DNA from: Streptomyces sp. MST-110588
Lineage (GTDB): Bacteria > Actinomycetota > Actinomycetes > Streptomycetales > Streptomycetaceae
Reading direction: 5' to 3'
Assembly (NCBI RefSeq): GCF_022695595.1
Contig: NZ_CP074380.1
Coordinates: 248,001 to 312,000 of the forward strand
DNA: 64,000 nt
The notes under the pieces are model-generated. The model had not been told where the DNA came from, ran no database searches, and worked only from the letters and a program-made list of their open reading frames with translations. Position 1 is the first letter of the stretch. Each line of letters starts with the position of its first letter. Shown here in pieces: positions 8,446 to 57,700 of this stretch. A program made the position numbers and the translations under genes.

Positions 8446-15482
<7,037 letters not shown>

Positions 15483-37747: not shown

Positions 37748-37976
37748 CCCGTACGGGACAGGTCATGTCCGCAGGCGGGCGGCAGACCAATTGCGCGGCG
37801 TGGATACGGTCCACTTCACAAATCCTTGACCCGGTGCGGGCCGATTCGTTGGACTTCCCGTCGAAGGCGTATCACGCCTTTGGATGGAGTCACTCACAAG
37901 GTGAACGACACGGGCGGGCGCTCGCCATCAGCGAGCCGCCCGCTCTGTGCCAAGGAATTCCCCGAAGCGAGGATTC
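37621..37976. other. Leader region of the right biosynthetic operon
   Basis: A 356-base region: the first third is the tandem repeat, the rest must contain the promoter of the operon starting at 37977. TTGGAC (37850-37855) lies 15 bases before TATCAC, a spacing too short to call with confidence. No gene seen. Confidence 0.4.
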
Positions 37977-38999
37977 GTGACCGTATCACCCGCACACAGG
38001 AGCCGCGCGCCGCTCGCGGTGCGTGCCGCGGCCCAGGAGTTACCGGTCCTCGTGGCGCCCGTGGCGGAACTGCCGGAGACGGCCGGGCTGGGACCGGCCG
38101 AGCGGGGTGTCGCTCTGGGCCTGGGAATCGAACGGGTACGGGCCGACGACTCCGTGGACGCGGTGACGCTGGCCGAGCGTGCCGCGCGCGGCGCCCTGGC
38201 CGCCGCACGGCTGACTCCCCAGGACGCGGACGCGCTGATCGTCGTGGAGTCCCGGGCGCCGCAGACCCTGCTCAGCTCGGAGGCGACCCGGCTCCAGCAC
38301 CTGCTCGGGGCCGACCGGGCGATCACGTTCTCGGTGGGCGGGCTGGGCTGTGTCTCCCTCACGCCGGCGCTGCTGGCGGCCCGTGGACTGCTCGCCGCCG
38401 ACCCCGCGACGCGACACGTACTGGTCGCCCACGGGAGCAAGCCCGCGACTCCCGGACGCTATCGCCACCCGGTGACGGTCAACGGGGACGGCGGGCAGGC
38501 GCTGGTGCTCTCCCGGACCGGTCCGGTACGGCTGCTCGACATCGTCCAGGAGACGAACGGGGCGTACTGGGACCTCTTCCACGTCGCTTTCCGGGACCGC
38601 CCGACCGCTCGGTGGCGCGAGGAGTGCCAGGACCCGGCCGCGTACTCCTTCCGGCTGGCGATCGAGACCCGCAACCGGCTGCGGGCCCTGCTCGGCGGGC
38701 TTTTGGAGCGCAACGGAATGTGTCCCGGCGACATCACCGGATTCATCAGCCAGAACCTGTCGGTGGGCAGTTTCGGGTTCACCGAGGAAGCTCTCGACGT
38801 GAAACTCCTGCCGGTCTGCCGGGAAAACCTGCGGGAGTACGGGCACCTCGGCCCCAACGACATCTTCCTGAATCTGTATTCCGCCGTCGAGCGCAAGGAA
38901 CTGGCCGTGGGCGACCGGGCCGTACTCATCAACGTGAGCCCGGTGGCGGCATGGAGTCTGCTGCTGGTGGAAATCGGAGACTTGGAGCTGACGGAATGA
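37977..38999 (+). CDS. KASIII-like (FabH-fold) acyltransferase or ketosynthase
   Basis: A 340-residue thiolase-fold protein of the KASIII family. The nucleophile lies in SVGGLGCVSL (C125). By eye the FabH His position (VPHQAN) aligns with FISQNLS, giving Q259, and the Asn position (GNTSAA) with GHLGPND, giving H290, so the Cys-His-Asn triad reads Cys-Gln-His. Relatives that lose decarboxylative residues, such as CerJ and DpsC-like enzymes, act as acyltransferases. It starts GTG 37977 behind GCGAGG and overlaps the ACP gene (ATGA). Roles to consider are moving the extender acyl group to the AT-less KS protein or loading a starter; both are inference. Confidence 0.85.
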   Translation: MTVSPAHRSRAPLAVRAAAQELPVLVAPVAELPETAGLGPAERGVALGLGIERVRADDSVDAVTLAERAARGALAAARLTPQDADALIVVESRAPQTLLSSEATRLQHLLGADRAITFSVGGLGCVSLTPALLAARGLLAADPATRHVLVAHGSKPATPGRYRHPVTVNGDGGQALVLSRTGPVRLLDIVQETNGAYWDLFHVAFRDRPTARWREECQDPAAYSFRLAIETRNRLRALLGGLLERNGMCPGDITGFISQNLSVGSFGFTEEALDVKLLPVCRENLREYGHLGPNDIFLNLYSAVERKELAVGDRAVLINVSPVAAWSLLLVEIGDLELTE

Positions 39000-39349
39000 C
39001 CTCGCCGACGACCTCGTCCGCGGCCACGAACCCGGCCACGGCCACGAACCCCGACCCGTCCACGACCGCGCCCCTCGAAGAAACCCCCGGAGCGACTCGC
39101 GAAGCATCCCTCGAAGAAACCCTCGGGGAAGTCACCGCGTTCCTCACCGCGGCCCTGCGGCAGGACATCGCGCCGGAGGACGATTACTTCGCGCTGGGGC
39201 TGGCGGATTCGCTGTTCGCCCTGGAGCTGGTGACGTTCGTCGAGGAGCGGTTCGGGCTGTCGGTGGAGGTCGAGGACCTCGATCTGGACAGCTTCCGCAC
39301 CGCGGCGGCCGTCGCCGCGTTCGTCGGCCGCAAGACCGGCCGGCCATGA
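38996..39349 (+). CDS. Discrete acyl carrier protein (FkbJ-like)
   Basis: A 117-residue protein: a 38-residue Thr/Ser/Pro/Ala leader, then an acyl carrier domain (LGEVTAFLTAALRQDIAPEDD) with phosphopantetheine site LGLADSL, S72. In methoxymalonyl-type pathways such a stand-alone carrier receives a glyceryl group from an FkbH enzyme and carries it through two oxidations. It overlaps its neighbours by ATGA on both sides. The long N-terminal leader is unusual for this small family. Confidence 0.92.
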   Translation: MTSPTTSSAATNPATATNPDPSTTAPLEETPGATREASLEETLGEVTAFLTAALRQDIAPEDDYFALGLADSLFALELVTFVEERFGLSVEVEDLDLDSFRTAAAVAAFVGRKTGRP

Positions 39350-40650
39350 CGCGCTCTCCTGGCGGTCCCGCGGCCCCCGCCGATGCGGCCCGCGCGGACG
39401 CGAGCCCCGTCAGCACGGCCTCCGCGAACACGGGCCCGGACCTGGTCCGTACGGCCGCCGAGCTGGCCGCCGCGCTGCGTGACCGGGCCGCCGACTGGGA
39501 TCAGCGGCAGGAGCTGCCGCCCGAGGTGCGCCGTACGGTGGCCGAGGCCGGTCTGCTCGGTGTCGCCGTCCCCCCGGAGTACGGCGGCAGCGGGCTCGGT
39601 GCCGCCGAACTGGGCGAGGTCTGCGCCCACTTGGGCGGGGTGTGCAGCGCGTTGCGCGGGCTGGTCACCGTTCAGAGCATGGTGGCGGCGGCACTGCTGC
39701 GCTGGGGCACCGAGGCACAGCGCGCACGCTGGCTGCCGCCGCTGGCACGCGGTACACGGATCGCCGCCTTCGCCGCCACCGAACCGGACGCGGGCAGCGC
39801 GCTGGCACACGTACGCACCCGGGTCGAGAACGTCGAGGAGGAGGCTGCCGGGAAGAACGATAAGGACCGGGCCGAGGCGATCGCCGTCGGGTCCGGGCAA
39901 GTGGTGGTGACCGGCCACAAGCGGTGGATCACCTTCGGGCGGTCGGCAGATGTCTTCCTGGTGCTGGGCCGGTCGGCAGCGGGGCCGGTCACGGTCCTGG
40001 TGGAGGCGGACCGGCCGGGGGTGCGCAGGGAGCCGGTGAGCGGGCAGCTCGGCATGCGGGCCGCGGACATCGCGCACGTACGCTTCGACGCGGTCACCGT
40101 GCCGCGCGAGAACCTCGTGGCGCCCGCCGGGGCCGGTCTGACCCATGTGGCGGCGACCGCGCTGGACCACGGGCGCTTCACCGTCGCCTGGGGCTGTGTC
40201 GGCATGGCCGAGGCGTGTGTGGCGGATGCGGCGGAGCACGCCGTACGGCGTACGCAGGGCGATGTGGCGCTCGCCGGCCACCAGTTGGTCGGGGCGCTGC
40301 TCGCCCGTGCCGCCGTGGAGACCGCGGCGGCGCGCGAACTGTGCGCGCGGGCCGCGCGGTTGCGGACCGGGAGGGGCCTGCGCGCGGTGACCGAGACCAT
40401 CGTCGCCAAGTACGCCGCCGCCCAGGCCGCCGGTTCGGCCGCGCACAGCGCCGTACAGGTGCTCGGCTCGGCAGGCTGTGGCCCCGAGAGCCGGGCCGGC
40501 CGCTTCTTCCGGGACGCGAAGATCATGGAGATCATCGAAGGGTCACAGCAAGTGGCGGAACTGCACATAGCCGACCGGCTGTTCCGACAGCACGGGCTCG
40601 GCGGTACGAGCCATGCGGACGTCACGAGCCGTACGGAGGCGTCGGCATGA
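39346..40650 (+). CDS. Acyl-CoA dehydrogenase-like oxidase (FkbI-like)
   Basis: A 434-residue flavoprotein of the acyl-CoA dehydrogenase family: VPPEYGGSGLGAAELGEV, FAATEPDAGSA, and the catalytic-base region KIMEIIEGSQQVAELHIADRL with Glu in place. FkbI-type members oxidize the aldehyde of 2-hydroxy-3-oxopropionyl-ACP to hydroxymalonyl-ACP. It is assigned to that step because it sits between the ACP and FkbH-like genes. A 30-residue Ala-rich start and an inserted acidic loop near residue 165 make it longer than usual family members. Confidence 0.9.
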   Translation: MTRSPGGPAAPADAARADASPVSTASANTGPDLVRTAAELAAALRDRAADWDQRQELPPEVRRTVAEAGLLGVAVPPEYGGSGLGAAELGEVCAHLGGVCSALRGLVTVQSMVAAALLRWGTEAQRARWLPPLARGTRIAAFAATEPDAGSALAHVRTRVENVEEEAAGKNDKDRAEAIAVGSGQVVVTGHKRWITFGRSADVFLVLGRSAAGPVTVLVEADRPGVRREPVSGQLGMRAADIAHVRFDAVTVPRENLVAPAGAGLTHVAATALDHGRFTVAWGCVGMAEACVADAAEHAVRRTQGDVALAGHQLVGALLARAAVETAAARELCARAARLRTGRGLRAVTETIVAKYAAAQAAGSAAHSAVQVLGSAGCGPESRAGRFFRDAKIMEIIEGSQQVAELHIADRLFRQHGLGGTSHADVTSRTEASA

Positions 40651-41912
40651 CCGGCGGCACCGCCGGCACCGTCGGCATACCGGAGGCCACCGCGGCACCG
40701 ACGGTCAAATGTCTGGTGTGGGACCTGGACGGCACGGTGTGGGACGGCACCGTACTGGAAGGCGATGCGCCCAGGCCCTTCCCGGCGGCCCTGGAAACCC
40801 TGCGGACCCTGGACGAGCGCGGCATCCTGCACGCGGTCGCCAGCCGCAGCGACCCCGGCGCCGCCGCCGCGCACCTGGCCGAGCACGGCCTGACCGACCT
40901 GTTCACCCTGCTGGACATCGGCTGGGGCGCGAAGTCCGAGGCGGTCCGGCGGATCGCCGGGAAGCTGAACATCGGCATCGACACCGTCGCGTTCATCGAC
41001 AACGACCCGATGGAGCGCGAGGAGATCGCCGCGGCGCTCCCCCAGGTGCGGTGCTACCCGGCCGACCTGGCCGCCCACCTGCCCGAACGCCCGGAGTTCC
41101 GGCCCCCGTTCGTCACCGACGAGTCCCGCCAGCGCCGTGCGCTCTACCGCGGCGAGCTGCGGCGCAAGGAGGCGCAGGAGTCCTACGAAGGGGCGCCCGC
41201 GCAGTTCCTGGCGTCCTTGGACCTGGAGCTGACCGTACGCCGGGCGACCGAGGAGGACCTGGCGCGGGCGCACGAACTGACGGTGCGGACCCATCAGCTC
41301 AACACGACCGGCCGTACGTACGACATGGACGCGCTGCGGGCGCTGTGCGCCTCGCCCCGGCACCAGGTGCTCGTCGCGAGCCTGCGGGACCGCTTCGGGT
41401 CGTACGGGACGATCGGCCTGGCGCTGACGGAGCGGACGGACCGGGCGCAGGATTCAGTAGGAGGCGAGGAGGCTCAAGGCGCGCAGAGGACGTGCGTGCT
41501 GCGGCTTCTCCTGCTGTCGTGCCGGGTGATGTCCCGGGGCGTCGGGCCCGCCCTGATCGGGCACATCGCGCGGGATGCGCTGGCGCGGGGGCTGCGCCCG
41601 CTCGCGGAGTTCGTGCCCACCGAGGTCAACCGGGTGATGCTGGTCAATCTGCGCTTCAGCGGCTTCGAGGTCGTCGAGCGTACGGAGGACCGCCTCGTGC
41701 TGGGACCGGCTCCGGGCGCGCCACTGCCCCCGCCGCCCGCCCACGTACGCGTACGGGTTGCCGACGCCGACGACGACGCCGTGGACACCGACACCGTGCA
41801 CGCCGTGGACACCGGGAACACCGTCACGAAGAACCACGCCGAGCCCGGTCCCGGTCCCGGCATTCCCGATGTTCCCGGCACCGAGCCCGATGTCACCTGG
41901 AGGAACCGTTGA
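40647..41912 (+). CDS. FkbH-like glyceryl-ACP synthase (HAD fold)
   Basis: A 421-residue bifunctional protein. The N-terminal half is a HAD phosphatase with DLDGTVWDGTV (D26, D28) and FIDNDPMEREE; the second half is the GNAT-like acyl-transfer part of FkbH (LTVRRATEEDLARAHELTVRT, CRVMSRGVGPALIG, EVNRVMLVNLRFSGFE). The family takes 1,3-bisphosphoglycerate, removes phosphate and loads glyceryl on a carrier. The final 55 residues are an extra acidic, low-complexity tail. It is coupled to both neighbours by start-stop overlaps. Confidence 0.93.
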   Translation: MTGGTAGTVGIPEATAAPTVKCLVWDLDGTVWDGTVLEGDAPRPFPAALETLRTLDERGILHAVASRSDPGAAAAHLAEHGLTDLFTLLDIGWGAKSEAVRRIAGKLNIGIDTVAFIDNDPMEREEIAAALPQVRCYPADLAAHLPERPEFRPPFVTDESRQRRALYRGELRRKEAQESYEGAPAQFLASLDLELTVRRATEEDLARAHELTVRTHQLNTTGRTYDMDALRALCASPRHQVLVASLRDRFGSYGTIGLALTERTDRAQDSVGGEEAQGAQRTCVLRLLLLSCRVMSRGVGPALIGHIARDALARGLRPLAEFVPTEVNRVMLVNLRFSGFEVVERTEDRLVLGPAPGAPLPPPPAHVRVRVADADDDAVDTDTVHAVDTGNTVTKNHAEPGPGPGIPDVPGTEPDVTWRNR

Positions 41913-42931
41913 ACGGTACGGAGAGCGGTACGGGCGGCGGCGCGGTCGCGGACCCTGTCGGCGCCGACAGACTGGTCGGGGTCGTCGGTGCGGGCACCAT
42001 GGGCGTGGGCGTGGCCCAGTGTCTCGCGGAGGCCGGTCATCGTGTCGTGGTCGTGGACCCGTCCGAAGAGGCCCGGTCGAAGGGCCCGCGCCGGCTGAAC
42101 GACGGACTGCGCACGGCCCGGCTGCTGCGTACGCGTACGAAGGGCGCCGCGCCCGCGTCCCCGGCCGCTTCAGCCCCCGCGCCCGGGAAGGGCCCGGCGG
42201 CGGACGTCGCCGCCCGGATCAGTTGGGTGCCGCACCTGAGCGGGCTGGACGGCGCCTCCTTCGTGATCGAGTGCGGACCGGAGCGCATTCCCGTCAAGGA
42301 GGCGGTGTTCAAGGAACTCGACGCGGTGTGCCCGGCGGACGCGGTCTTCGCCTCCTGTACGTCCGCGATCCCGGTCGCACAGCTCGCCGCGTACACCCAG
42401 CGGCCCGACCGCGTCATCGGCACCCACTTCATGAACCCCGCGTACCTCAAGGACGCGGTCGAGGTGATCCGCGGGCCGCGGACCGCCTCGAGCACGCTGG
42501 ACGCCACGCTCGCCCTGCTGGCCACGATGGGCAAACGAGGACACGTGGTGCGCGATGCGCCCGGCTTCGTCTCCAACCGGATCCTGATGCCGGTGGTCAA
42601 CGACGCCGCGGCGCTGCTCCAGGCGGGCACCTCCGACGCCGGAACCGTGGACAAGATCTTCGAGGAGTGCTTCGGGCACGCGATGGGACCGCTGCGCACC
42701 GCGGACCTGATCGGCCTGGACACGGTGCTCGACTCGCTCCACGTCCTGCTGGAAACCACCGGGGACCCGCGCTTCGAACCCTGTGACCTCCTGGTGGACC
42801 TGGTGCGCCGGGGCGAGTGCGGCCGTAAGAGCGGCCAGGGCTTCTACTCGTACACGTCGCACGGGGCGCACGGGGCGCACGGGGCGTACGAGTCGCACGG
42901 GTCGTACGAGTCGTACGGGAGCCGGCGATGA
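41909..42931 (+). CDS. 3-Hydroxyacyl-CoA dehydrogenase-like protein (FkbK-like)
   Basis: A 340-residue NAD-dependent dehydrogenase. The Rossmann motif is VVGAGTMGVGVAQ, followed by IECGPERIPVKEAVFKELDAV, THFMNPAYLKDAVEVI, and APGFVSNRILMPVVNDAAALL, as in the hydroxybutyryl-CoA dehydrogenase family. FkbK members oxidize glyceryl-ACP to the semialdehyde. The start is TTG 41909, overlapping the FkbH stop (TTGA) behind GGAGG. A Ser/His/Gly/Tyr repeat tail (HGAHGAHGAYESHG) ends the protein. Confidence 0.9.
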   Translation: MNGTESGTGGGAVADPVGADRLVGVVGAGTMGVGVAQCLAEAGHRVVVVDPSEEARSKGPRRLNDGLRTARLLRTRTKGAAPASPAASAPAPGKGPAADVAARISWVPHLSGLDGASFVIECGPERIPVKEAVFKELDAVCPADAVFASCTSAIPVAQLAAYTQRPDRVIGTHFMNPAYLKDAVEVIRGPRTASSTLDATLALLATMGKRGHVVRDAPGFVSNRILMPVVNDAAALLQAGTSDAGTVDKIFEECFGHAMGPLRTADLIGLDTVLDSLHVLLETTGDPRFEPCDLLVDLVRRGECGRKSGQGFYSYTSHGAHGAHGAYESHGSYESYGSRR

Positions 42932-44904
42932 ACGCGTTCGCCACCGGGTCCGGGCCCGAGGACGTCCTGACGCTGATACGCCGGCAGTTCCGGGCGGCGC
43001 CGGACACCACCGCCGTGGTGGTGGGCGATGTGGCGCTGAGCTACCGCGAACTGGCGGCGGCGAGCAGTGCGCTGGCGGCCCGGCTCGCCGCGTGCGGGGT
43101 CCGGGCCGGACGGGCCGTGCTGCTGTACCGGCAGCAGAGCGCGGACACGGTGGTGGGCATGCTCGCCGCCCTGTGGCTGGGCGCGCCGTGGTGCGTGGTG
43201 GAGCCGGGACAGCCGGTGGGCCGCGTCCATGCGCTGCTCAAGGACGTCGACTGCGCGGCCGTGGTGTTCGACGGTACGGACCCGGCCACGGCACCGGAGG
43301 CGGTCCGTACGGTGACGGCCGCAGGCCCCGGCCCGGCGCCGGCGCTCTGCGACTTCACGTGCGCCACATCCGATACGTCCACCGCCACGGCGCCGCCGCC
43401 CGCCGATGTGCCGGGGGACTGTGCCGCGTACGTGATCAGCACGTCCGGGTCGACGGGTGTGCCCAAGGCGGTGGTGATCAGCCGCGCCAACCTCGCGCAC
43501 GTGGTCGCCACCCGCCACGAAGAAGCCGGCCTGGTCACCTTCATGCCGTGCCGGCTGTCCTGGGACGGCGGGCTGATGCTGCTCTTCCCGACATTGTGCA
43601 CGGGCGGTACGGCGGTGCTGCCGGACGCCCGCCGGCTCCCCGACGCCCAGGCCGCGGCGGCGCTGCTGCGGCACCACCGGGCCGCCGCCGTCGCCGGGCC
43701 CCCGTCCTTCTACTCGCTGATGCTGCCCTACCTGGCCGGTGCGGACGAGCATCTGCGGATCGTGACGCTCGGCGGCGAGGTGGTGTCCCCGTCGCTGGTC
43801 CGGGCACACCGGGCCGCGCTGCCCGGCGCCCGGCTGGTCAACGACTACGGGCCGACCGAGACCACGATCACGGTGCTGTCCCATCCCCTGCCGGATATAC
43901 CGGGCGTACCGGATGAACCGGATGTGCCTGGTGCATCGGATGGCGCGGGCGTGCCGGACTCGTCCCGGACCACGGTGCCCATCGGCCTCCCGACGGGCCG
44001 TACGACCGCGTACGTGCTCGATACGCGGCTGGCTCCGGCCGTCGCGGGCGCCGTGGGCGAGCTGTACATCGGGGGCCCGCAGGTCGGGCTCGGGTACGCG
44101 AGCCGCCCGGCGGAGACGGCCGGACGCTTCGTGGCCGACCCGTTCGCCGGGACCGCCGGGGCACGGATGTACCGTACCGGCGACCTGGCCCGTATCGGCC
44201 CGACCGGGGACATCGAGTTCCACGGACGGGAGGACGGGCAGGTCAAGGTGCGCGGCGCACGGATCGAGCGGCAGGCCGTCCGCGCCGTGCTGGAGAGCCA
44301 CCCGGGGGTGGGGCAGGTGGCCGTACTCGGGGTTCCCGAGGAGCGCGGTGGCAGCGCTCTCGTCGCGTTCTGGACGCCGGCCGGGCAGGACGCCGAGGCC
44401 GTGCCCACCGTCCGGGACCTGATCGACTTCTGCGCCGGGAAGCTGCTGGAACAGGCCGTACCCGGTCTCTTCGTGATGGTCGAGAAGATGCCGCTCTCGG
44501 CCGCCGGGAAGACGGACGAGCGCGCGCTGCTGGCCCTGCTTCCGGACCTTCCGCCGGCCGGGCAGGCGCGGACATCCGAGACAGCCGGGACAGAAGGGAT
44601 AGAAAGGACGCCCGGGACGACCGAGACGGTGGAGTCCTTGCAGAAGGCCGTCGCGGACCTGTGGGCCGAGGTGCTGCGGCACGACGGATTCGGCCCGCGC
44701 GACAGCTTCTTCGACGCCGGCGGCAACTCGCATCGCGTCGTGGAACTCCACATGCGCCTTCAGGACAGGTGGCCCAACGCTCTCAGAGTGGGCCGGCTCT
44801 TCGATCTGAACACCGTGGAGGCGCAGGCCGCCGCCCTCGCCGAGGCGCTCGCCGCCCCCGGCGCGGCCCGGCCCGCCGCGGCACCGATGGCTTACGAGGT
44901 ATGA
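42928..44904 (+). CDS. Stand-alone NRPS A-PCP didomain
   Basis: A 658-residue protein: adenylation domain (STSGSTGVPKAVVIS, DYGPTETTI, YRTGDLARIGPTGDIEF, carboxy Lys in SAAGKTDERAL) and a carrier domain (DSFFDAGGNSHRVVEL). The specificity residues read D-G-M-A-T-G-D-I-T, which I cannot assign. It lacks C, E and TE. It could be the loading module for the KS protein it overlaps, or the acceptor for the bare C domain ending the large NRPS; the sequence does not decide. It also could charge the A-less module in trans. Confidence 0.9.
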   Translation: MNAFATGSGPEDVLTLIRRQFRAAPDTTAVVVGDVALSYRELAAASSALAARLAACGVRAGRAVLLYRQQSADTVVGMLAALWLGAPWCVVEPGQPVGRVHALLKDVDCAAVVFDGTDPATAPEAVRTVTAAGPGPAPALCDFTCATSDTSTATAPPPADVPGDCAAYVISTSGSTGVPKAVVISRANLAHVVATRHEEAGLVTFMPCRLSWDGGLMLLFPTLCTGGTAVLPDARRLPDAQAAAALLRHHRAAAVAGPPSFYSLMLPYLAGADEHLRIVTLGGEVVSPSLVRAHRAALPGARLVNDYGPTETTITVLSHPLPDIPGVPDEPDVPGASDGAGVPDSSRTTVPIGLPTGRTTAYVLDTRLAPAVAGAVGELYIGGPQVGLGYASRPAETAGRFVADPFAGTAGARMYRTGDLARIGPTGDIEFHGREDGQVKVRGARIERQAVRAVLESHPGVGQVAVLGVPEERGGSALVAFWTPAGQDAEAVPTVRDLIDFCAGKLLEQAVPGLFVMVEKMPLSAAGKTDERALLALLPDLPPAGQARTSETAGTEGIERTPGTTETVESLQKAVADLWAEVLRHDGFGPRDSFFDAGGNSHRVVELHMRLQDRWPNALRVGRLFDLNTVEAQAAALAEALAAPGAARPAAAPMAYEV

Positions 44905-47900
44905 GCACCGTGGGAGACACCATGACGAGCGGTACCGTGTCCGCGCCCGGCGACGACGACATCGCGATCGTCGGTATGGCCGTCAGGTTCCCCGACGCCG
45001 ACGACCTGGCCGCGTTCCGTACGAACCTCAAGGCGGGCCGGGACTCGGTGGGGGCCATGCCCCCGAAGCGGGCGGCGGCGACCGGGCTGGACCCGGCCGC
45101 GCCCCACCTCCCCATGGGCCATCTCGCCGACATCCACACCTTCGACTACGCGTTCTTCCACTTCTCCCGGCGCGAGGCGTCGCTGATGGACCCGCAGCAG
45201 CGTCTGGCGCTGCTCCTGGCGCATCAGGCGCTGGAGGACGCCGGGTACGCGGCGGCGGGCTTCCGCGATCTCCCGGTGGCCGTCGTCCTCAGCTCCGCGC
45301 CCTCCACCTATCAGGTCGCCGCCGCCGACCCGGGCACGCTCAGCGCGCTGGGCAATGTGCCCTTCGGACTGCCCGCCCGTATCGCCCATGTCCTGGGGCT
45401 GGCCGGGCCCTGTTACGCGGTGGACACCGGCTGCAACGCCTCGCTGATCGCCGTGCATCACGCCTGCCGTGAACTGGCCTCGGGCGAGGCGGAGTACGCG
45501 ATCGCGGGCGGCGTCGGCATCCGGGCGGGCGGCGTGCCGGCGCGGGAGGCCGAGGGTCTGACCGAACTGGTGTCCCCCGGCGACCGCTGCCGGGCCTTCG
45601 ACGCGGCGGCGGACGGCACCGTCGGCGGTGAGGGCGGGGCGGTGCTGCTGCTGACCACCGTACGGCGGGCGCGGGCCGACGGCGCGTCCGTCCACGCGGT
45701 GATCCGTGGCAGCGCCACGCTGCACAACGGCCGTGCCGCGGCCACCATCAGCACACCCAGCGCCGACGGTCAGGCGAAGGTGATCGCCAAGGCGTGGCGG
45801 GCCGCCGGCCTGGATCCCGTACAGGCCGGGTACGTCGAGGCGCACGGCTCGGGCACGCGCCTGGGGGACGCGGTCGAACTGGAGGGCCTGACAGCCGCGT
45901 TCGCCGGGCGGCCGGGCCGGCTGCCGATCGGCTCGGTGAAGACGAACATCGGCCACCTGGACCACGCCGCGGGCGTCGCCGGGCTGGTCAAGGCCGTACT
46001 GAGCGTCAAGTACGGCGAGCTGTACCCGTCCCTGCACTTCGAGCGGGTGACCGGCGGCATCGACCTGGAGGCCGCCGGGCTGGAGGTGGTCACCGAGGCC
46101 CGGGCGTGGCCGGACGAACAGCGGCTGGCCGGCGTCAGCTCGTACAGCCTCGGTGGCATCAACGCGCACTGTGTGGTGCAGCAGCCGCCTTCGCAGGCGG
46201 CGGTCCGGGACCGGCCGGGCCCCCGGCAGTCGGCCGCCGCCCAAGAGCCCGTACTCGTGGGCGTCTCGGCCCGCAGCCGCGGTGCGCTGGCACGGCTCTG
46301 CGGCTCCTTGGGACCCTGTTGCGGGACGGCCGTACGGAGCTGGCCGATGTCGCCTTCACCCTCAATCAGGGACGGGCGCACTACAGGCACCGTATCGCCG
46401 TACGGGCGCGGGACACCGAGGAACTCGCCCTGCGGCTCGCCGCGCAGGCTACCTGGCTCGGTGCCGGGGACACGGAGGGAAGCGGGAACGGCGGGGGCGA
46501 CGGGAACGGTGAAGGTGGAGGGAACGGGGGCCGCGGGGCGGTCGAAGCCGCCGGGCCCGCCGCCCCGGCTCCCGCGGTTCCGCCGGCCGTCGTCCTGCTG
46601 CTCTCCCCCGACGCGCCGCCTGCGGGGGTACCCCCTAAGGACCTGCCGCCGCAGTTGCCCGCCGAGGGCGCCGAAGCCGCCGTCCTGGGAGGGCAGTTGG
46701 CCGTGTACGAGCGGCTGCGCCGCTGCGGCGTGCCGGTCGACGTCATGCTCAGCGGCGGGGTGTCGCGGTACGCGGCCCGCCATCTGCGCGGCGAACTCAC
46801 CGAGCGGGACAGCGCGGAGCTGGCCGCGGGACGCGGGGCCGCGCCCGCCGACCCCGCCCGGCTCGCCGAGGCGGCCGACCGGCTCCTGGCCGACGGCCGC
46901 CCGGTGGTCTTCGTCGAGCTGAGCCCCGAGGGCAGCCTCGGGGCGCTGCTGGCCGACCGGCTCGCGGCGCACCCGGACGCCGAGCTGCTGACGCTGGACG
47001 CACGTACCGGCGGGCTCGGCGCGGTGCTCGGCCGGCTCTACGAGCGCGGTGTGGACCTGGACTGGCGGGAGGCGAGCCCCACGCCGCGCTCGGCGCGCCG
47101 GGTGCGGCTGCCCGGACACCCGATGAACGGGAGCCGGTGCTGGGCCGGTCCGGTGACGAACGCGGCCGTAACGAACACGACCGTGGCGGACACGACCGTG
47201 ACCGGCCGAGCGGCGACGACCACGTCGCCGCCCCCCGCCCCGCCGCAGCGGGCCGTACAGCCGGCGCCGGCCGCCCCGCCGTCGGCCGACGACCCCGCCA
47301 CCTGGCTCCGTACGACTCTGGGGGACATCCTCCAGGCCGAGACCGAGATATCCCCCGAGGACGACTATTTCGAGCTGGGCGGCAACTCGATCATCGCCCT
47401 CCAGCTCGTGGAGCGCGTCGAGCAGCGGTACGGGTTCCGGCCCAAGCTGCTCGACGTCTACGAGCACCCCAAGGTGTCCGATCTCGCCGGTCTCATCCGG
47501 TCGCACACGGCCACCCCCGGTCAGGGCCTGCCCCCGGTGACCGCGCAGGACGGCCTGGTGATGTCCTTCGGCCAGGAACGCATGTGGTTCCACCATCAGC
47601 TCCAGGGCGACAACACGCTCTACAACCTGCCGATGGTCAACCACATACGGGGCCCGGTCGATGTGGCGGCGCTGCGCGGTATATGGGAGGACCTGGCCGA
47701 GCGTCACGAGGTGCTGCGCTCCAATTACGTGGAGCGCGACGGCGTGCCGGAGTTGCGTATCCGTCCGGAGCTGGGCGAGGACTTCTTCCGGTACGCCGAT
47801 GTCTCGGGCGATCCCGACCCGCTGGTCTCCGCGCGCGAGCTGGCGCGCCAGGCGGCCCAGCACCGCTTCGACCTCGCCGTGGACCCGCTGGTCAAGGTGC

Positions 47901-50900
47901 TCGTGGTGCGGCTCGGGCCGGATGAGCACATCCTCCAGGTGACCATGCACCACTCCGTCAACGACGGCGCCTCGCCGAAGATCTTCCAGCGTGAGCTGCC
48001 CGAGCTCTACGCGGCCCGCCGCGAGGGCCGGCCGCACCGGCTGGAGCCGCTGCCGGTCCGCTACCGGGACTACGCGCGCTGGCAGCGGGACCTGCTGGCC
48101 TCCTCGGCGCTGGAGGGTGAACTGGAGTACTGGAAGCGGACCCTGCGGGACGTACCGGTGCTGCGGCTGCCGACCGACCACCCCCGCCCGGCGCGCCGGA
48201 GCTTCACCGGTGACCTGCACACCTTCACCGTTCCGGCGCCCCTCATGCGGGAGCTGCGGCATCTGGCGGCGCGTGAGTCGGCCACTTTGTTCACCGTTCT
48301 GCTGGCGGCGCTGTACCTGCTGCTCGCGCGCCGCAGCGGACAGCGTGACCTGGTCATCGGCACTCCCACCACCGGCCGCAACCGCCCGGAACTCCAGGGC
48401 CTGCTGGGTTTCTTCAACAGTACGGTCGCCCTGCGCGCGGATGTCCACGGCGACCAGGGCCTGCGGGACTTCATCCGGCACGTACGGACGGTGGTCCTCC
48501 AGGCGCTGGAGCACCAGGAGATCCCGTTCGACCGGGTGGTCAGTGCGCTGGGCGTCGAGCGGGACCTGAGCCGGTCCCCGCTGTTCGACGTGTCGTACGT
48601 GCATCAGATACTGCCGCCCATGCAGCAGTTGGACGGTACGGCGGTCGGCTTCTTCGACGAGCGCCACACCTCCTCCAACCTCTTCGGCGGGCTGCCGACC
48701 GGCACCGCGAAGTTCGATCTGACGCTGGTCACCTCCGACCGGGAGGGGGACGAGGAGATGGCCGCGTGCCTGGAATACAGCACGGAGCTGTTCACCGCGC
48801 GGACGGCCGCCGGGATGACCGAGGAGTACGTCGGTCTGCTGTGGGAGATCGTCGCGGCCGGTACGGCCGATGCGTCCGGTACGGCCGGTGACGCGGGCGA
48901 TCCGCCGCTGTCACGCTTCCTCGACGGCTCCGCTGAAACGGTTCGGCCGGCGCCGCCCGCCACCATTCCCGCGCTGTTCGAGGCGCAGGCCGCACGTACT
49001 CCGGACGCGACGGCCCTGCGCGTGCCCGGGGACGACACCACCAGCACCAGCACCGGCACCGGCACCGGCACGGAGAACACCTCCGGCACCGAACTCAGCT
49101 ATGCCGCGCTGGACGCCCTGGCCAACCGGACCGCCCGGGAGCTGATCGCCCGCGGCGCCGGTCCGGAGGAGCGCGTCGCGGTGCTGCTGCCGCGCTCCGC
49201 GCACCTGGTCGTCTCACTCCTCGCCGTACTGAAGTCGGGCGCCGCCTTCATCCCTCTGGACCCGCACTACCCCGAACAGCGGCTGCGGCTGATGCTCGAC
49301 GACGCGGCCCCCGCACTCGTGATCACCGACACCGCGCACGCAGCCCGCGCCCCGCTGTCCGGCCGCGCGGACCTCCTGGTCGTCGACGATCCTCGTACGA
49401 CCGCACGGATCGCCGCCCGCCCCGGCGGAACCGTCCACGACGCGGAACGGCGCGGCCCGCTGCTGCACTCCCACGCCGCGTACATCATCTACACGTCCGG
49501 GACCAGCGGCCGTCCCAAGGGGTGGTGGTGCCCCATACGGGGATGTCCACGGTGCTGCGCGGCACCACTCCCGTGATGGGGCTGGGCGAGGGCGGCCGGG
49601 CGCTCCAGTTCTGCTCGCCCAGCTTCGACCTGGGTCTGTTCGAGATGGTCGAGACGCTGACCAGCGGGGCGACCCTGGTGGTCGCGCCCGCCGAGCGGCT
49701 GCGGCCGGGCGGTCCGCTGGAGCGCCTGGCCCACCAGGAGCGGATCACGGCGCTCTCGCTGCCGCCCTCGGCGCTGGCCGCACTCGTGCCCGGTGAGAGC
49801 CTGCCCGTGCGGACGCTGATCCGCAGCGGGGGCGAGGCGCTGCCGCCGGAGCTGGCCGCCCGCTGGTCGGAGCACCACGCCCTGGTCAACGGGTACGGCC
49901 CCACGGAGACCACGGTGGTCGCCACGATCTCGGACCGGCTCGACGGCGCCCGCGCGCCCATCGGCCGGGCCCTGCCCGGAACCACCCTCCACGTCCTGGA
50001 CGGTGAGCTGGCGCCGGTCCCCGAGGACCGGCCCGGTGAGCTCTACATCGCGGGCCCCACCGTGGCCCGGGGCTATCTGGGGCACCCGGCGCTGACGGCG
50101 GAACGGTTCGTCGCCGATCCGTTCGCGGCCGACGGCAGCCGGATGTACCGCACCGGTGACATCGTCCGCCGGACCGCCGACGGCGAACTGCACTTCGTCG
50201 GCCGGTCCGACCGGCAGCTCAAGATCCGCGGCCATCGCGTCGAGCCGGGTGAGATCGAAGCGGCGCTGCTGCGGCACCGTACGGTCGCCGCAGCCGCCGT
50301 CCGGGAGTGGGCCGACGCCGGCGGGGACACCCGGCTCGTGGCGTACGTCGTGCCCGCAGCCCATACCCCGGCGACGACCGCACCGGCGGGCACCTGTCTG
50401 GCCGACACCCTGCCGGCGGATCTCGCTACCGTCCTGCCCGCCCACGCCGTGCCCTCGGCCGTCATGGTCATCCCCGAACTGCCGCTGACCCCCAACGGCA
50501 AGACCGACCACAGCGCGCTGCCCGCCCCCGGATTCGCCGCGAAGACCGCCGGCGGCTCCAACGGCGCCGACGTCGGTCCCGGCAGCTTTGGCAGGGCACC
50601 GCGCACCGAGCGGGAGCGGCGGCTGTGCGCCCTGTTCGCCGAGGTGCTGGGCCTGCCCTCGGTCGGGACCGACGACAACTTCTTCGAGCTGGGCGGCCAT
50701 TCGCTGCTCACCACCCGGCTGGTCCGGCGTATCGAGGCCACCTTCGGCAGCACGGTCGACGTCTCGACGGTGTTCCTCGCGCCGACCGTCGCCTCCCTGG
50801 CGGAGGAGATCGGCGCGGTGGAGAAGGCCGGAGCGGTGGAGAAAACCGGAGCGGTGGAGAAAACCGGAGCGGTACGGGCAACCGACGTGGACGCCCCGCC

Positions 50901-51714
50901 GCTCGCCTTCGAAACGCTGCTCCCGCTGCGCGCCTCCGGCAGTCGGCCCGCGCTCTTCTGCGTCCATCCGGCGGCCGGGGTGAGCTGGATGTACTCGGTG
51001 CTGGCCCGGCAGCTCGGCCCGGACCGGCCCCTGTACGGGCTCCAGGGCCGCGGCATGGACGGCGTCGGGCCGCTGCCCGGCAGCATCGAGGAGATGGCCG
51101 CCGACTACGCGGAGCAGATCCGCGCCGTACAGCCCGAGGGCCCGTACCACCTGCTCGGCTGGTCCTTCGGCGGGATGGTGGCCCATGCCGTGGCGACCGC
51201 GCTTCAGGAGCGGGGGCAGGAGGTCGGACTGCTGGCACTGCTGGACTCCTACGTCCTTGCGGACCTGGAGGACCCGCCGCTCCAGCCGCCCGAGGGCGAG
51301 CACGCGCTGTACGCGGCGCTGCTGGAGTACGCGGGTATCCGGCCCGCCGGGATGCGGCAGGAGGAGGTGACCCCGGACCGCTTCCTGGAGATCGTACGGG
51401 GCTCGGACAACCCGCTCTCGGGCCTGTCCGAACGCCATCTGCTCGGAATGGGACGGGTGTTCGGCAACGACTCCGCCATCGCCCTGGGGTTCCGCCCGGC
51501 GAAGTTCACCGGAGATGTGCTGTTCTTCCGGGCGGCCAGGGGCCCGCACGATCCCCGGCCGCTGCTGGACCCGGACCTGTGGGCCCCGTACGTCACCGGC
51601 GGTCTGCGCATCCACCGGAGCACCTACTCCCACCAGGACATGGGCTCTCCCGCCGCGCTCGCCGACATCGGCCGGGTGGTGGCCGCCGCGCTGGACCAGG
51701 ACGAGAGGAGCTGA
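44901..51714 (+). CDS. Hybrid PKS-NRPS, KS-(eroded AT)-PCP-C-A-PCP-TE, two apparent frameshifts
   Basis: Domains by position: KS 44940-46200 (DTGCNASL with C178, EAHGSGT, KTNIGH); an eroded AT about 46555-47130, where the GHSxGE serine site reads SGGVSR; carrier 47290-47510 (LGGNSII); C 47560-48890 (HHSVNDG); A 48950-50530 (code D-L-F-S-R-G-G-V-V, unassigned); carrier 50610-50815 (LGGHSLL); TE 50910-51710 (GWSFGG, YSHQDM). Breaks occur at 46310-46312 and 49519-49522; adding one G in each run restores one frame. With no working AT, the extender must arrive another way, and the hydroxymalonyl-ACP cassette upstream is the natural source. The TE makes this the likely last protein of the line. Start ATG 44901 overlaps the A-PCP stop. 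Confidence 0.9.
50816..50873 (+). repeat. Three 18-base tandem repeats in the PCP-TE linker
   Basis: Units of GCGGTGGAGAAAACCGGA, nearly perfect, code for six-residue AVEKTG copies between the last carrier and the thioesterase. Confidence 0.85.
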
Positions 51715-51718
51715 CGGC

Positions 51719-54700
51719 ATGGCCGAGGAGCGGTGGCCGCTGACGGCGGCGCAGACGGGCATCTGGTTCGGACAGGAACTCGACCCGACGGGACTGCGTT
51801 ACAACGTGGGGCAGTACGTGCACCTCCACGGCGCGGTCGACGAGGGCCGGTTCGAGCGCGCCCTGCGGACGGTCCTGGCGGGCAGCGAGACCTTGCGCGT
51901 ACGGTTCGAGCGGGTGCCCGGCGGGGTCGAGCAGGTCCTGGCGCCGCCCCCCGAACGGCCGCTGCGGCGGGAGGACTTCAGCGGCTGCGCGGACCCGTGG
52001 GAGCGGGCCCGGCAGTTCATCGCCGAGGAGTTCGCGGTTCCGTACGACCTGGCGGTGGCTCCCGTCTTCGACCACTACCTGATCAAGGTCGGGGCGGCGG
52101 ACCATCTGTGGTGCCTGAAGATGCACCACATCGTGTGCGACGGGATGGCCGTCGCCGCGCTCATCCGGCGGGTGGCCGCGGCGTACACCGCGCTGTGCGC
52201 GGGCGAGCCGGTCCCGTCCCGGGACGAGGTCTTCGACCGGCTGGAGACGCTGGTCACCGAGGACCAGCGCTACCGCGGGTCCGCACGGTTCCGCGACGAT
52301 GCCGCGTTCTGGGCGGAGCGGCTCGCCGGGGCCGCGGACGCGCCGCAGTTCGCTGCGGGGCCCGTCCCGGCCGACGCCCGAGGTCATCTGCGCGTCGGTG
52401 CGCGGCTGCCGCGGGAGCACTGGGACCGGGTACGGGAACGGGCCAAGGCACTCGACGAGCCCTGGTCCGCCCTGTTCACCGCCGGGGTGGCGGTGGCGCT
52501 GCACGCCGACACCGGCCGGTCCGACATCACCGTGGGCCTGTCGGTACCGGCCCGAACCGGCCGGATCGCCCGCGGCTGCCTGGGGACGGCCGCGGACATC
52601 GTTCCGCTGCGCCTGGACGTCGATCCGGCGGCTCCGGTGGAGGAGTTGGTGCACGCCGCCGCGTCCGCGACCCGTACGGTCCTGCGCCACCAGCGCTACC
52701 GCCTGGAGGACATGCTCAGGGACGCCTCGGCGGTCGGGGACGGCCGACGGCTCCTGGGGCCCACGCTCAACCTGTTGTCCCTGGACCAGGACCTGGACTT
52801 CGCCGGGCTGCGGGCCACCGTGCACGTGGTCTCGCCCGGCCTCACCGACGGCTTTTCCCTCGGGGTCTACCACAACGGCGAGCCCGACCTGAGGGTGGAC
52901 GCCGACGCGGGCGGCAGCCGCTATGCGGAGGCGGACGCGCGGGGCCAGGTGGAGCGGGTGCTGCGCGCGGTGTCGGCCGTGGCCCGGGCGGCGGAGGGCA
53001 CGGCGGTCGGGAGGCTGCGGCTGGACGGCGGGCAGGCGGGGGCCGGCGCGGGGACGCGTACGGGTACGGATACAGGTACGGCGCGGGCGGATGCCGGGAC
53101 CGTACGGTCTCCGGCTCCCCGTACCGATACGTACGCGCCGAAGCCAGAAACCGCACCACAACCGCGTCCTGCGTCCGGACCGGAGCACGCCCCGGCCACC
53201 ATCGTCGGGCTCTTCGCACGGCAGGCTGCGGCGGTCCCTGGTTCGGTCGCCGTGGTCGCGGGCGCGCGACGGCTGACGTACGCCGAACTGGACGAGCGGT
53301 CGGAGCGGCTGGCCCACCGGATCGCCGGCCGCGGAGTGCGGCGCGGGGACCTGGTCGCCGTCGCACTGCCGCGCTCGGCCGATCTGGTCGTCGCGCTCCT
53401 CGCCGTGCTCAAGGCCGGCGCCGCCTACGTACCGCTGGATCCCGGCTATCCCGCCGACCGCCTGGCCGCGATGCTCGCCGACGCCCGGCCCGCACTGCTG
53501 GTCACCGGCCCGGACAGGGACACCGCGCGGACGGCGCCCGAGCTGCCCGTACTGCTGGTGGACAAGGAGGAGACGCAAGAGACCGACGAGCGTCCGGCCG
53601 CCGGGGTCACACCCCCCGACGGTGGTCCGGCCCCCGCCGACCCCGCCTACGTCATCTACACGTCCGGGTCGACCGGCCGGCCCAAGGGCGTGGTGGTGAC
53701 CCACCGCAACGTCACCCGGCTGATCACCGGTACCACCCGGCGGTTCGGCTTCGGCCGCGCCGACATCTGGACGCTCTTCCACTCCCACGCGTTCGACTTC
53801 TCGGTGTGGGAGATGTGGGGCGCCCTGCTGCACGGCGGCAGGCTGGTCGTGGTGCCCGAGGACGTGGCCCGCTCGCCGGAGGAGTTCCGGGAGCTGCTGG
53901 TCACGGAGCGGGTGACGGTTCTCAGTCAGACCCCCTCCGCCTTCCAGCAGCTCGCCGGGGCCGACGCCCGGTGCCGGCCGGACGCGGGCGCCCGGCTCGC
54001 GCTGCGCTATGTGATCTTCGGCGGGGAGGCGCTGGAACCGCGGCGGCTGGCGGGCTGGTACGCGCGGCACGCCGACGACGCACCGTACTTGGTGAACATG
54101 TACGGCATCACCGAGACCACCGTGCATGTCACCGACGGTCCCCTGGACGCCTCGACGGCGGCGGAGGGCGGCAGCGTCATCGGAAGGCCGCTGCCCGACC
54201 TGCGGGTACATCTCCTGGACGCGGCGCTGCGCCCGGTGCCGGACGGTCTTCCGGGTGAGATGTACGTGTCCGGGGCGGGCGTCGCGCTGGGCTATCTGCA
54301 CCGCCCGGCGCTGACCGCCGAGCGGTTCGTCGCCGACCCCTTCGGCCCGGTGGGCACCCGTATGTACCGCAGCGGGGACCTGGCCCGCCGCCGGGCGGAC
54401 GGAACCCTGGAGTACCTGGGGCGCGCGGACCGGCAGGTGAAGATCCGCGGGTACCGCATAGAGCCCGGTGAGGTCGAGGCCCGGCTCGCCGAACTGCCCG
54501 GCGTCACCGACGCCGCCGTGCTGATCACCGAGTACGCGCCGGGTGACCGGCGCCTGACCGCCTATGTGGTCGCGGACGGCCCGGCGGCCGAGCAGGCGGC
54601 GCAGCGGGCGGCCGAGGTGCTGCCCGCGCACATGGTGCCCGCGGACTTCATCCCGGTCCCCGCCTTCCCCCTGACCGCCAACGGCAAGCTGGACGAGCGC

Positions 54701-57700
54701 AGACTGCGCGCGTTCCGGCCGGGAAGCGGCGGGGCGGGCGGGACAGGCGGCGGTGGCCGGGAGCCGCGCGGTGCGACGGAGACCGCGTTGCACGCGCTGT
54801 TCGCCGAGGTGCTGGGGGTGACGGACTTCGGCACCGAGGAGAGCTTTTTCGTCCTGGGCGGCAACTCCCTGCTGGCCAACAGCCTCCTGACCCGGATCCG
54901 TGCCACGCTCCCCGCCGCCCCGACGATCCGTGACGTCTTCCGGTCCTCGACCGTGGCGGGGCTCGCGGCCGTGATCGACGGCGGTACCGATGGCGGTACG
55001 GTGGCGCCGCAGGGCACCCGGCTGGTCCCGGTGCCCCGGCCCGACCGCGTCCCGGCCTCGTACGCCCAGCGCAGCCTGTGGTTCCTGCACCAACTGGGCG
55101 GCCAGGGACCGACGTACCACATCCCGCTTGCGGCCCGGCTGGACGGGCCGCTGGACGTGGCCGCGCTGCGCGCCGCGCTGGCCGATGTGCAGCGCCGCCA
55201 CGAAAGCCTGCGCACGGTCTTCCCCGGCACCGACGGCGAGCCCTGGCAGCGCGTCCTGGAGGACCCCGACGTCCCCCTGACCACGCTGGAGATCGGCGGG
55301 ACCGACGGGGTCGCCGGGGCCGCCGGAACCGACGAGGCCGGCCCGGCGGGCGAGGCAGGCCAAGCCGGTGAGGTCGCGCTGCACGCCGCGCTGGCGCGGG
55401 AGTTCCGGCGGGAGCTGGACCTGACCCGGCAGCAGCCGTGGCGCGCCACGCTGTTCACCCTCGCTCCCGACTCCCATGTGCTGCTGATCGTCGTGCACCA
55501 CATCGCGGCCGACGAACACTCGCTGCACCCGCTGACCCGTGACCTGGCCACCGCCTACGCCGCGCGCCGCGCCGGCCGCGCCCCCGGGTGGCCGCCGCTG
55601 CCGGTGCAGTACGCGGACTTCACGCTCTGGCAGCGGCGCGTCCTGGGCCGCGAGGAGGACCCCGGGAGCCTGCTCGCCGCCGAACTGGCCCATTGGCGTA
55701 CGGCGCTGCGCGGGGCCCCCGACGAGCTGCGGCTGCCGGCGGACCACCGCCGCCCACGGACCGCAGCACATCCCGGCGACGCCGTCCCCTTCACCTGGAG
55801 CCCCGAACTGGGCGCGCGGGCCGCCGAGTTGGCGATGTCCCGCGGCGCCACCGTCTTCATGGTGCTGCACGCCGCCGTGGCCTGTCTGCTCAGCAGGCTC
55901 GGGGCGGGCACCGACATCCCGCTGGGCACGGTGGCGGCGGGCCGTGACGAGGCGGCGCTGGAGGAGCTGGTCGGCTTCTTCACCCATACGCTCGTGCTGC
56001 GGACCGACCTGTCCGGGAATCCCGGCTTCTCGGCCGTCCTGGACCGGGTCCGGCACACCGACATCACGGCCTTCGCGCATCAGCGCGTTCCGTTCGAACG
56101 GGTCGTCGAGGCGGTCAATCCGCCGCGTGAGCTGGGCCGTCATCCGCTCTTCCAGGTGATGATCAGCATGCACACGGGCCGTCAGGCCGAGCTGCGGCTG
56201 CCGGGCCTGGAGGCCACCGCGTTCCAGCCGCCCCGCTCCATGGCCAAGTTCGCGCTGCTCTTCGACTTCACCGAGCGGGCGGACCACGGCATCGAGGGCG
56301 TACTGGAATACAGCGCGGACTCCTTCGAGCGGCCGACTGCGGAGCTGATCGTACGTGCGCTGGGGCGGCTGCTGGAGGGCGCGCTGTCCGATCCGGACCT
56401 GCCGTTCGAGGCCCTGGACATCCTGGACGCGGACGAGGAGCGCCGGCTGAACCTGAACCTGGACCTGCCGGCCGCGCAGGGCGGGACGGCCGGGCACGAC
56501 GGGACGGCCGCGGAGGCGGCGCGGGCGACGGACCCGCTGGACTCGGCGGAGACCACGGGCTCCGCCTCCGTGTCCGCCTCGGCCCCCACGTCCGCCTCCG
56601 CCTCCGCCTCCGCGGAACTGCTCGACGCCCTGTTCCGCTCGGTCCTCGGCCGCGACCGGATCGATCGCGAGGAGAACTTCTTCCGTCTCGGGGGCGACAG
56701 CATCCTCGCCATCCAACTGGTGACCCGGGCCCGCGCCGCCGGTCTCCTGATCAGCCCCAAGGACGTCTTCACCCACCAGAGCGTCCGGGCGCTCGCACGG
56801 GTCGCGGACCGCGCGGTGCCCACCGCCTCCGCGCCCGCCGCGCCGCCCGCCCACCAGCCGCTGGGCACCCTGCCTACCACGCCGATCATGGAGTGGCTCG
56901 CCTCGCTCGGCGGGCCGGTGGAGGGGTTCGCCCAGTCCGTCGTGTGCCGGCTGCCCCCGACGGTCACCGACGAGTCGCTGCGCGCGGCCCTTCAGCAGGT
57001 GCTGGACCACCACGACGCACTACGGATGCGGCTCATCGGCGAGGCCGGCGAGCCGTGGCGGCTGGAGGTCCGGCCGCCCGGCGCCGTACGCGCCGCATCG
57101 TGTCTGCACCGGGTCTCCCTGGCCCGCGAAGGCATCACCGCGAGGACCACCAACGACCCCGACAACCCCAGCGATTCCGGCGATCCACACGGTTCGCAGG
57201 ACCTGCGGCGCCTCCTGGACGAGCTGCGCCGGGACGCGCGGCGCCGTCTGGACCCGCGCGCCGGGAACCTGCTGCGCGCCATCTGGCTCGACGGCGAACA
57301 CCCCCTGCTCCTGCTGGTCATCCACCACTTCGCGGTGGACGGGGTCTCCTGGCGCATCCTCCTGCCGGACCTGGCGGCGGCGCACACCGCCGCGCTGCGC
57401 GGCGGGTCGGCGGCGCTCGCGCCCGTACCGGTGCCGCTGCGCACCTGGGCGCAGGCGCTGGAGTCGGCGGCGTACGGCCCACGGGTGGCGGCCGAACAGG
57501 GCTGGTGGCAGCGCCTGCTGGACCGGGCGGGCGGGGTGATCGGCACCCGCGCGCTGGACCGTACCCGGGACGTCGTCGCAAGCTCCGAGTCGCTGAGCGT
57601 CACCCTGGAGCCGGGGGAGACCGCGGCGCTGCTGGCCGACGTGCCGAACCGTTTCCACGCGGCGGTCCCCGACATCCTCCTGTCCGCGCTCTCGGTCGCG

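Follow-up and report, generated by a model that had tools for sequence, protein, structure and literature searches.

An acyltransferase-dead ketosynthase module beside a hydroxymalonyl-ACP cassette in Streptomyces sp. MST-110588 and a KASIII-like protein as its candidate trans-acyltransferase

RESULTS

The operon joins a hydroxymalonyl-ACP cassette to a ketosynthase module

The DNA analyzed here is a 64,000-nucleotide stretch of the genome of Streptomyces sp. MST-110588 (G000:C1:248001-312000 of a single 7.9-Mb contig; GC content, 67 to 76%), referred to as the window. Within it lies an operon in which a single ketosynthase (KS) module sits inside a nonribosomal peptide synthetase (NRPS). The first gene of the operon encodes K3, a protein resembling β-ketoacyl-acyl carrier protein synthase III (KASIII), which we consider a candidate for loading the extender unit of that module. 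An earlier examination of the letters alone (the sequence-only reading) began its range at position 37977, inside the K3 gene, and left unnamed this gene that proves central. The features are listed in Table 1.

Table 1. Features of the operon and its downstream NRPS genes (window positions)
Feature	Position	Strand	Evidence or remark
K3, KASIII-like protein, proposed trans-acyltransferase	37947..38999	+	First gene of operon
K3 putative catalytic triad	Cys135 38349-38351; His300 38844-38846; Asp305 38859-38861	+	Alignment
Discrete ACP, putative extender carrier	38996..39349	+	Open frame and GLADSL carrier motif; start codon inferred
FkbI-like acyl-ACP dehydrogenase	39346..40650	+	Acyl-CoA_dh_1/N/M, 103.9/89/57.9 bits (Pfam)
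FkbH-like glyceryl-ACP synthase	40647..41912	+	TIGR01686, 228.6 bits (cut-off, 146.65); DLDGT motif in frame
FkbK-like 3-hydroxyacyl-ACP dehydrogenase	41903..42931	+	3HCDH_N, 156.6 bits; 3HCDH, 97.5 bits; start uncertain
Stand-alone A-PCP didomain	42928..44904	+	AMP-binding, 204.8 bits; PP-binding, 33 bits
KS domain and KS-AT linker	44955..46304	+	ketoacyl-synt, 192.8 bits; Ketoacyl-synt_C, 119.6 bits; KAsynt_C_assoc, 44.5 bits
Pseudo-AT, shrunken, no catalytic Ser	46301..47152	+	Relatives' profile A2, 256 bits; 5' side frame-broken
PCP, proposed hydroxymalonyl acceptor	47303..47497	+	PP-binding, 52.3 bits
C-A-PCP-TE	47549..51714	+	Condensation, 286.1 bits; AMP-binding pieces, 117.6 and 114.7 bits; PP-binding, 62.3 bits; Thioesterase, 101.4 bits
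Downstream NRPS	51515..61842	+	First frame, 4 condensation-type, 1 A, and 2 PCP; then partial C and A (Pfam)
ACP, acyl carrier protein; A, adenylation domain; PCP, peptidyl carrier protein; AT, acyltransferase; C, condensation domain; TE, thioesterase.

The ACP-, FkbI-, FkbH-, and FkbK-like genes that the sequence-only reading placed next to a KS protein are present and together make up a hydroxymalonyl-ACP cassette. The three enzymes were assigned by TIGR01686 and Pfam matches and the ACP by its frame and motif only, Pfam and NCBIfam scans having given no match for it. FkbH charges an ACP with a glyceryl unit derived from 1,3-bisphosphoglycerate. In zwittermicin and related cassettes, FkbK and FkbI oxidize glyceryl-ACP to hydroxymalonyl-ACP (excerpts of PMC6395733 and PMC4207774). 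The Pfam scan showed no methyltransferase among the genes from 37947 to 51714; because the operon shows no O-methyltransferase, methoxymalonyl is improbable, and gene content indicates that the cassette product is probably hydroxymalonyl.

The KS retains its catalytic residues in the window copy, the Cys (DTGCNAS) and both His residues (EAHGSGT and NIGH) being read in frame; in relatives, these motifs were checked by simple patterns, by which some were missed. No ketoreductase (KR) domain was detected in the KS module by Pfam. The stand-alone A-PCP didomain is a probable source of an aminoacyl starter for the KS.

The AT domain is dead in the window and in the relatives examined

In place of the GHSxGE expected in an AT, the window domain has SGGVSR (46751-46768), and no G-x-S-x-G, the nucleophile motif of cis-acting ATs of the ZmaA type, occurs in the pseudo-AT piece. 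The earlier claim of a shortened AT that has lost its active Ser was thus borne out, and it extends beyond the window. Relatives were collected via K3 from 20 stretches of Streptomyces genomes and 64 named loci, partly overlapping, and supplied 68 KS reading frames, of which 60 were distinct. The motif test covered G[HQ]SxG, then any G-x-S-x-G together with the alignment column (ZmaA-AT has GYSFG). GHSxG was absent between KS and carrier from all 68 frames; four of them contain one stray G-x-S-x-G each, at positions off the nucleophile elbow. In 31 aligned pseudo-AT regions, the nucleophile column holds Gly (29 regions), Asp (1 region), or Ala (1 region) and never Ser. The Pfam AT family PF00698 matched none of these 31 regions at an E value of 0.01, while the KS-AT linker families matched every one. 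A profile built from them, A2, scored the window pseudo-AT as listed in Table 1 and reached at most 78 bits in the rest of the genome. An intact AT Ser elsewhere in the region, which the sequence-only reading had named as refuting evidence, was looked for and set aside, none being seen by motif or by alignment. Alignment thus indicates that AT death is conserved across relatives and is no local accident.

The predicted structure of a relative's pseudo-AT had a mean predicted local distance difference test (pLDDT) score of 88.2, and its best fold matches were polyketide synthase (PKS) KS-AT and AT structures, with large root mean square deviations (6 to 13 Å) and query-normalized TM-scores of about 0.4 to 0.6. 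Querying the PDB with the sequence of the window pseudo-AT returned only noise. The model suggests that the pseudo-AT is probably folded but catalytically dead. The shortest pseudo-ATs occur in L080 and L099, where 234 and 225 residues separate the KS match and the post-AT linker (other listed loci, 240 to 332); this suggests that erosion is continuing.

Three apparent frame breaks interrupt the NRPS/PKS genes of the window, at about 46.35, 49.5, and 59 kb; they were left unmended, and the pieces were searched apart. The first (46.3 to 46.4 kb) falls at the 5' side of the pseudo-AT, and the second falls inside an A domain. These breaks would fit a cluster that is decaying, with the lost AT and the broken frames signifying absence of function. 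We regard this as very unlikely: dozens of relatives share the AT loss and have uninterrupted frames from the KS to the pseudo-AT, and a relative's pseudo-AT remnant is modeled as folded with high confidence. The equivalent of the first break is open in relatives (for example, open reading frames of 1570 amino acids in L030 and 1583 amino acids in L031), and at the equivalent of the second, L030 and L031 each carry the two parts of the best-matching A domain in a single frame, separated by 3 bases. Sequencing error is a possible cause of such breaks, the assembly being GC rich, and this copy alone is affected.

No discrete AT was found near the module

Classical trans-AT type I PKSs (oxazolomycin, leinamycin) contain KS modules without a working cis-AT that are served by discrete FabD-like ATs. 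The operon is like them in that it has a KS module without a working cis-AT, which would have to be served from outside. It is unlike them in having one KS module inside an NRPS, with no FabD-like AT found near and a KASIII-like protein instead. Seven AT domains were found in the genome. The only stand-alone one is FabD (346 amino acids), which is far off and adjoins a FabH-family gene. The nearest to the module, in agreement with the earlier statement that no other AT lies in the operon, is a cis-AT at 12741-13688, about 33 kb off on the other strand, and five further AT domains lie in open frames of at least 1039 amino acids. This nearest AT is intact and belongs to a KS-AT-DH-ER-KR-ACP protein (DH, dehydratase; ER, enoylreductase) that, with a TubC docking-C-A-PCP-nitroreductase-like protein, forms a separate NRPS-PKS pair (4060-15482, minus strand).

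The AT probe, at an E value of 1e-6, matched none of the 64 related loci; the same probe detected ATs in L153, L154, L156, and L165. A discrete trans-AT in the flanks was therefore set aside, none having been found near the module in this genome or in the related loci. The sequence-only reading had called for such a check and counted a functional trans-AT in the flanking cluster as refuting evidence; the check yielded no AT-fold trans-AT and one nonclassical candidate, of KASIII fold. The view of that reading that the extender is probably handed over without a classical AT agrees with the conserved AT loss and the lack of a discrete AT nearby, but the operon, containing K3, is probably not free of a transferase.

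K3 carries the putative triad of KASIII-type acyltransferases

The family-model matches of K3 all lie under their cut-offs: the ACP_syn_III_C match (23.6 bits) is under the Pfam cut-off, NCBIfam matches to FabH and PRK06840 are weak and all far under cut-off, and TIGR00747 scores 50.9 bits (cut-off, 292.1). The predicted structure (pLDDT, 84.9) has the thiolase/KASIII fold, and the first Foldseek matches were DpsC, NatS, ChlB3, and CerJ, in a list from which a family may be absent without being excluded.

Cys135, His300, and Asp305 are invariant across 30 aligned K3 relatives. The His and Asp line up with the ChlB3 segment GHLGasD (that piece alone being weak, with an E value of 0.54), and the K3 family profile matches ChlB3 at an E value of 8.9e-11. 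K3 has His at the FabH Asn position and, as in ChlB3, Asp five residues on. The FabH His position is occupied by Gln in the window K3 and by His in some relatives, so that the Cys-His-Asn set of FabH was not found. The alignment indicates that the K3 triad is that of the KASIII-type acyltransferases ChlB3 and CerJ rather than that of FabH.

In ChlB3, Cys113-His296-Asp301 carries out acyl transfer; ChlB3 acylates an ACP, and CerJ transfers malonyl units (excerpts of PMC9573744). Triad numbering here follows ChlB3, the number of the CerJ Asp being inconsistent within those excerpts. SfaN is likewise named as a KASIII-like acyltransferase in part of PMC12186527. K3 shares the KASIII fold and Cys-His-Asp with ChlB3 and CerJ (PMC9573744) and with AfcL (PMC12186527), at identities of only about 20 to 25% in fold alignments. 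In the portions of those two papers drawn on here, these enzymes have tasks other than the one proposed below for K3: coupling of an aryl acid, acylation of sugars, or storage, shuttling, and release of chains. Extender supply to an AT-less type I KS module is not ascribed to any of them there.

K3 might instead be a condensing enzyme that joins a hydroxymalonyl or glyceryl unit to the chain. Such a role is attributed to the FabH-like proteins of tetronate cassettes, the KASIII fold and FkbH/ACP neighborhood of K3 are compatible with it, and the top Foldseek match, DpsC, belongs to the daunorubicin starter-unit system. The residues at the FabH His and Asn positions and the ChlB3-like Asp argue against it, and a type I KS with catalytic residues is already available for condensation; we judge this role very unlikely.

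A second FkbH in the genome (G000:C1:2687726-2689863) lies beside another KASIII-like gene, with 27 to 28% identity to K3.

K3 and the pseudo-AT occur together across Streptomyces genomes

The pairing was surveyed in 392 Streptomyces genomes, in each of which only the best five or six first-look candidates were scored. K3 relatives (E value of 1e-20 or better) occur in at least 32 of the 392. Among the scored candidates, K3 of at least 56% identity was found at 23 places in 21 genomes and a strong pseudo-AT (at least 222 bits) at 24 places in 22 genomes. At 24 of 24 strong pseudo-AT places, the same contig holds a K3 at a distance of less than 10 kb; conversely, a pseudo-AT is present at all 23 close-K3 places. 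The 21 close-K3 genomes all fall within the 22 pseudo-AT genomes; in the one that remains, G181, K3 shows 44 to 45% identity and is in two pieces. Six further places had intermediate profile scores (124 to 141 bits), three of which (L153, L154, and L156) match the AT probe.

A KS was found at 54 of the 64 named K3 loci and FkbH at 41. KS, FkbH, and FkbI occur together with K3 at 38, and KS without FkbH occurs at 16. Seven of the 10 loci with no KS are pieces of less than 15 kb. Three arrangements were seen: K3-ACP-FkbI-FkbH-[A-PCP]-[KS-pseudoAT-PCP-C]; [KS-pseudoAT-PCP-C-A]-K3-ACP-FkbI-FkbH-FkbK; and KS-pseudoAT-PCP-C-K3, with no cassette within 10 kb. In L101 and L108, which have KS without FkbH, the cassette is about 15 and 20 kb off on the same contig. 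A genome-wide FkbH look-up covered the KS-without-FkbH loci other than L088, L073, and L090; the genomes of L093, L094, L103, L106, L107, L109, L112, L116, and L119 carry FkbH somewhere.

The module might be loaded with malonyl by a general trans-AT such as FabD or by the cis-AT of a neighboring PKS, with the cassette and K3 serving starter loading or tailoring. FabD is indeed encoded in the genome, and KASIII-like enzymes have been linked to starter loading (the sanglifehrin (2S)-2-ethylmalonamyl starter unit, from a reference title in PMC12186527). Such loading is nevertheless distinctly unlikely given the 38 loci that keep KS, FkbH, and FkbI together with K3 and given that the other six AT domains of the genome are all in open frames of at least 1039 amino acids.

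AT loss beside K3 has likely occurred repeatedly

A distant K3 clade (37 to 45% identity) was inspected at 13 loci (L142 and L158 to L169). KS was present in 11 of the 13, with no AT after the KS in 10 of the 11. The distance from KS to carrier is 233 to 295 amino acids in seven of these loci, and in L142, L161, and L164 the post-AT linker, by eye, follows the KS linker directly or nearly so. Cys-His-Asp is kept in the six distant K3s that were aligned (L126, L127, L128, L130, L137, and L142, L127 and L142 being the same gene). In a quick KS tree of 79 rows, with long branches and few intact references, distant-clade AT-less KSs branched at three positions. Two of these are separate from the main group and share the side of the tree with intact-AT KSs, and the third (L158) is a long branch beside the main group. 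From these three positions, AT loss beside K3 looks repeated, which with such a tree is likely rather than certain.

The gene order FkbK-ACP-FkbI-K3-FkbH beside AT-less KS modules was seen at L142 (Streptomyces rimosus, G392:C52) and at L158 to L167. In L142, the KS-PCP is followed, by eye, by an apparent thioester-reductase domain.

DISCUSSION

We propose that K3, with its KASIII fold, acts as a trans-acyltransferase: it would collect hydroxymalonyl from the free ACP and place it on the carrier of the AT-dead module. To this proposal we assign a probability of roughly 0.7. The unit moved, its donor, its acceptor, and any docking role are what we infer from the cassette, the KS residues, the dead AT, the K3 triad, and the constant pairing read in the sequences. 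FkbH, FkbI, and FkbK would make hydroxymalonyl on the discrete ACP. Cys135 of K3, aided by His300 and Asp305, would accept it in a ping-pong reaction via a Cys thioester and deliver it to the KS module's PCP. Lacking the FabH His/Asn pair, K3 is expected to decarboxylate hydroxymalonyl poorly and would thereby keep it intact until its use by the KS. The KS, having received an aminoacyl unit from the A-PCP protein, would then carry out decarboxylative condensation; with no KR in the module, the predicted product is a 4-amino-2-hydroxy-3-oxo acyl chain, which the C-A-PCP-TE part would take onward. The former AT may remain as a spacer and perhaps as a docking platform.

Alternatively, the KS could use hydroxymalonyl in trans while it is still on the discrete ACP, with no loading of the module's PCP beforehand, the product being passed on later and K3 doing something else, such as moving the product. 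The KS catalytic residues are present, the cassette has a dedicated ACP (ACP relatives of at least 50 bits by tblastn at 45 of the 64 K3 loci), and no AT-fold transferase was found near. With direct use, however, the module's own PCP, directly after the pseudo-AT, would have no substrate, and the triad-bearing K3 accompanies the module also at loci that have the cassette farther off or out of view. We therefore consider direct use unlikely.

Several observations weigh against transfer by K3. With the limit on candidates scored per genome, weaker K3 or pseudo-AT places may have been missed. Two S. rimosus loci (L062 and L117) hold K3 and pseudo-AT with no cassette in view, and that genome has its sole FkbH match next to a distant K3 on a different contig. 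No KS was seen within 10 kb in L074, L082, and L091, which are K3 loci of about 21 kb, and L165, of the distant clade, has an intact AT nearby. Conversely, the other three intermediate-score places (L152, L155, and L157) are pseudo-AT KS modules with no close K3 in 20 kb, and L171 (88 bits) is a fourth, less clear K3-free module, with distant FkbH- and KASIII-like matches; all four have a KS, no AT motif, and 341 to 365 amino acids to the carrier. The existence of pseudo-AT modules without a close K3 means that AT death is not always tied to K3 and that another solution is possible. KASIII-like acyltransferases can also move units other than extenders, and the frame breaks may mean that the window copy is mis-sequenced or dead.

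Zwittermicin A is among the closest known systems; in the excerpts of PMC4207774 used here, ZmaA-AT recognizes hydroxymalonyl-ACP (ZmaF recognizes aminomalonyl-ACP) and transfers the unit to a second carrier through an acyl-enzyme. As there, transfer by K3 would involve FkbH/I/K-type enzymes and an ACP-bound hydroxymalonyl that must move to a second carrier. In zwittermicin A, however, the transferase is an AT-fold protein with the Ser of GYSxG, whereas the present operon has a dead AT and, as the one candidate transferase found, a protein of KASIII fold.

A broader proposal, to which we give an even chance, is that extender loading in KS modules embedded in actinomycete NRPSs was repeatedly taken over from cis-ATs by a second class of trans-acyltransferases, of KASIII rather than FabD fold, that is devoted to ACP-bound hydroxymalonyl and uses the dead AT as a docking domain. 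KASIII-like acyltransferases are known for other transfers, and trans-ATs are known as FabD-like proteins. In the open-access literature (subscription papers and preprints lay outside the scope), no description was found of a KASIII-like protein that constantly accompanies an AT-dead extender module or of a KASIII-like enzyme that loads an extender on an AT-less module. ATs select the extender units of polyketides and are a main engineering target. If the proposal is correct, a dedicated KASIII-fold loader of ACP-made hydroxymalonyl would be a new, portable route to hydroxyl groups in peptides and polyketides, and it would account for clusters that annotation would call KS modules without an AT.

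No match was made between the window cluster and a named compound. The foxicin cluster was considered as a relative and set aside, the architecture described for it being different. In the NRPS downstream of the operon, at least one module of the frame at 51515-59143 seemingly has no A domain of its own.

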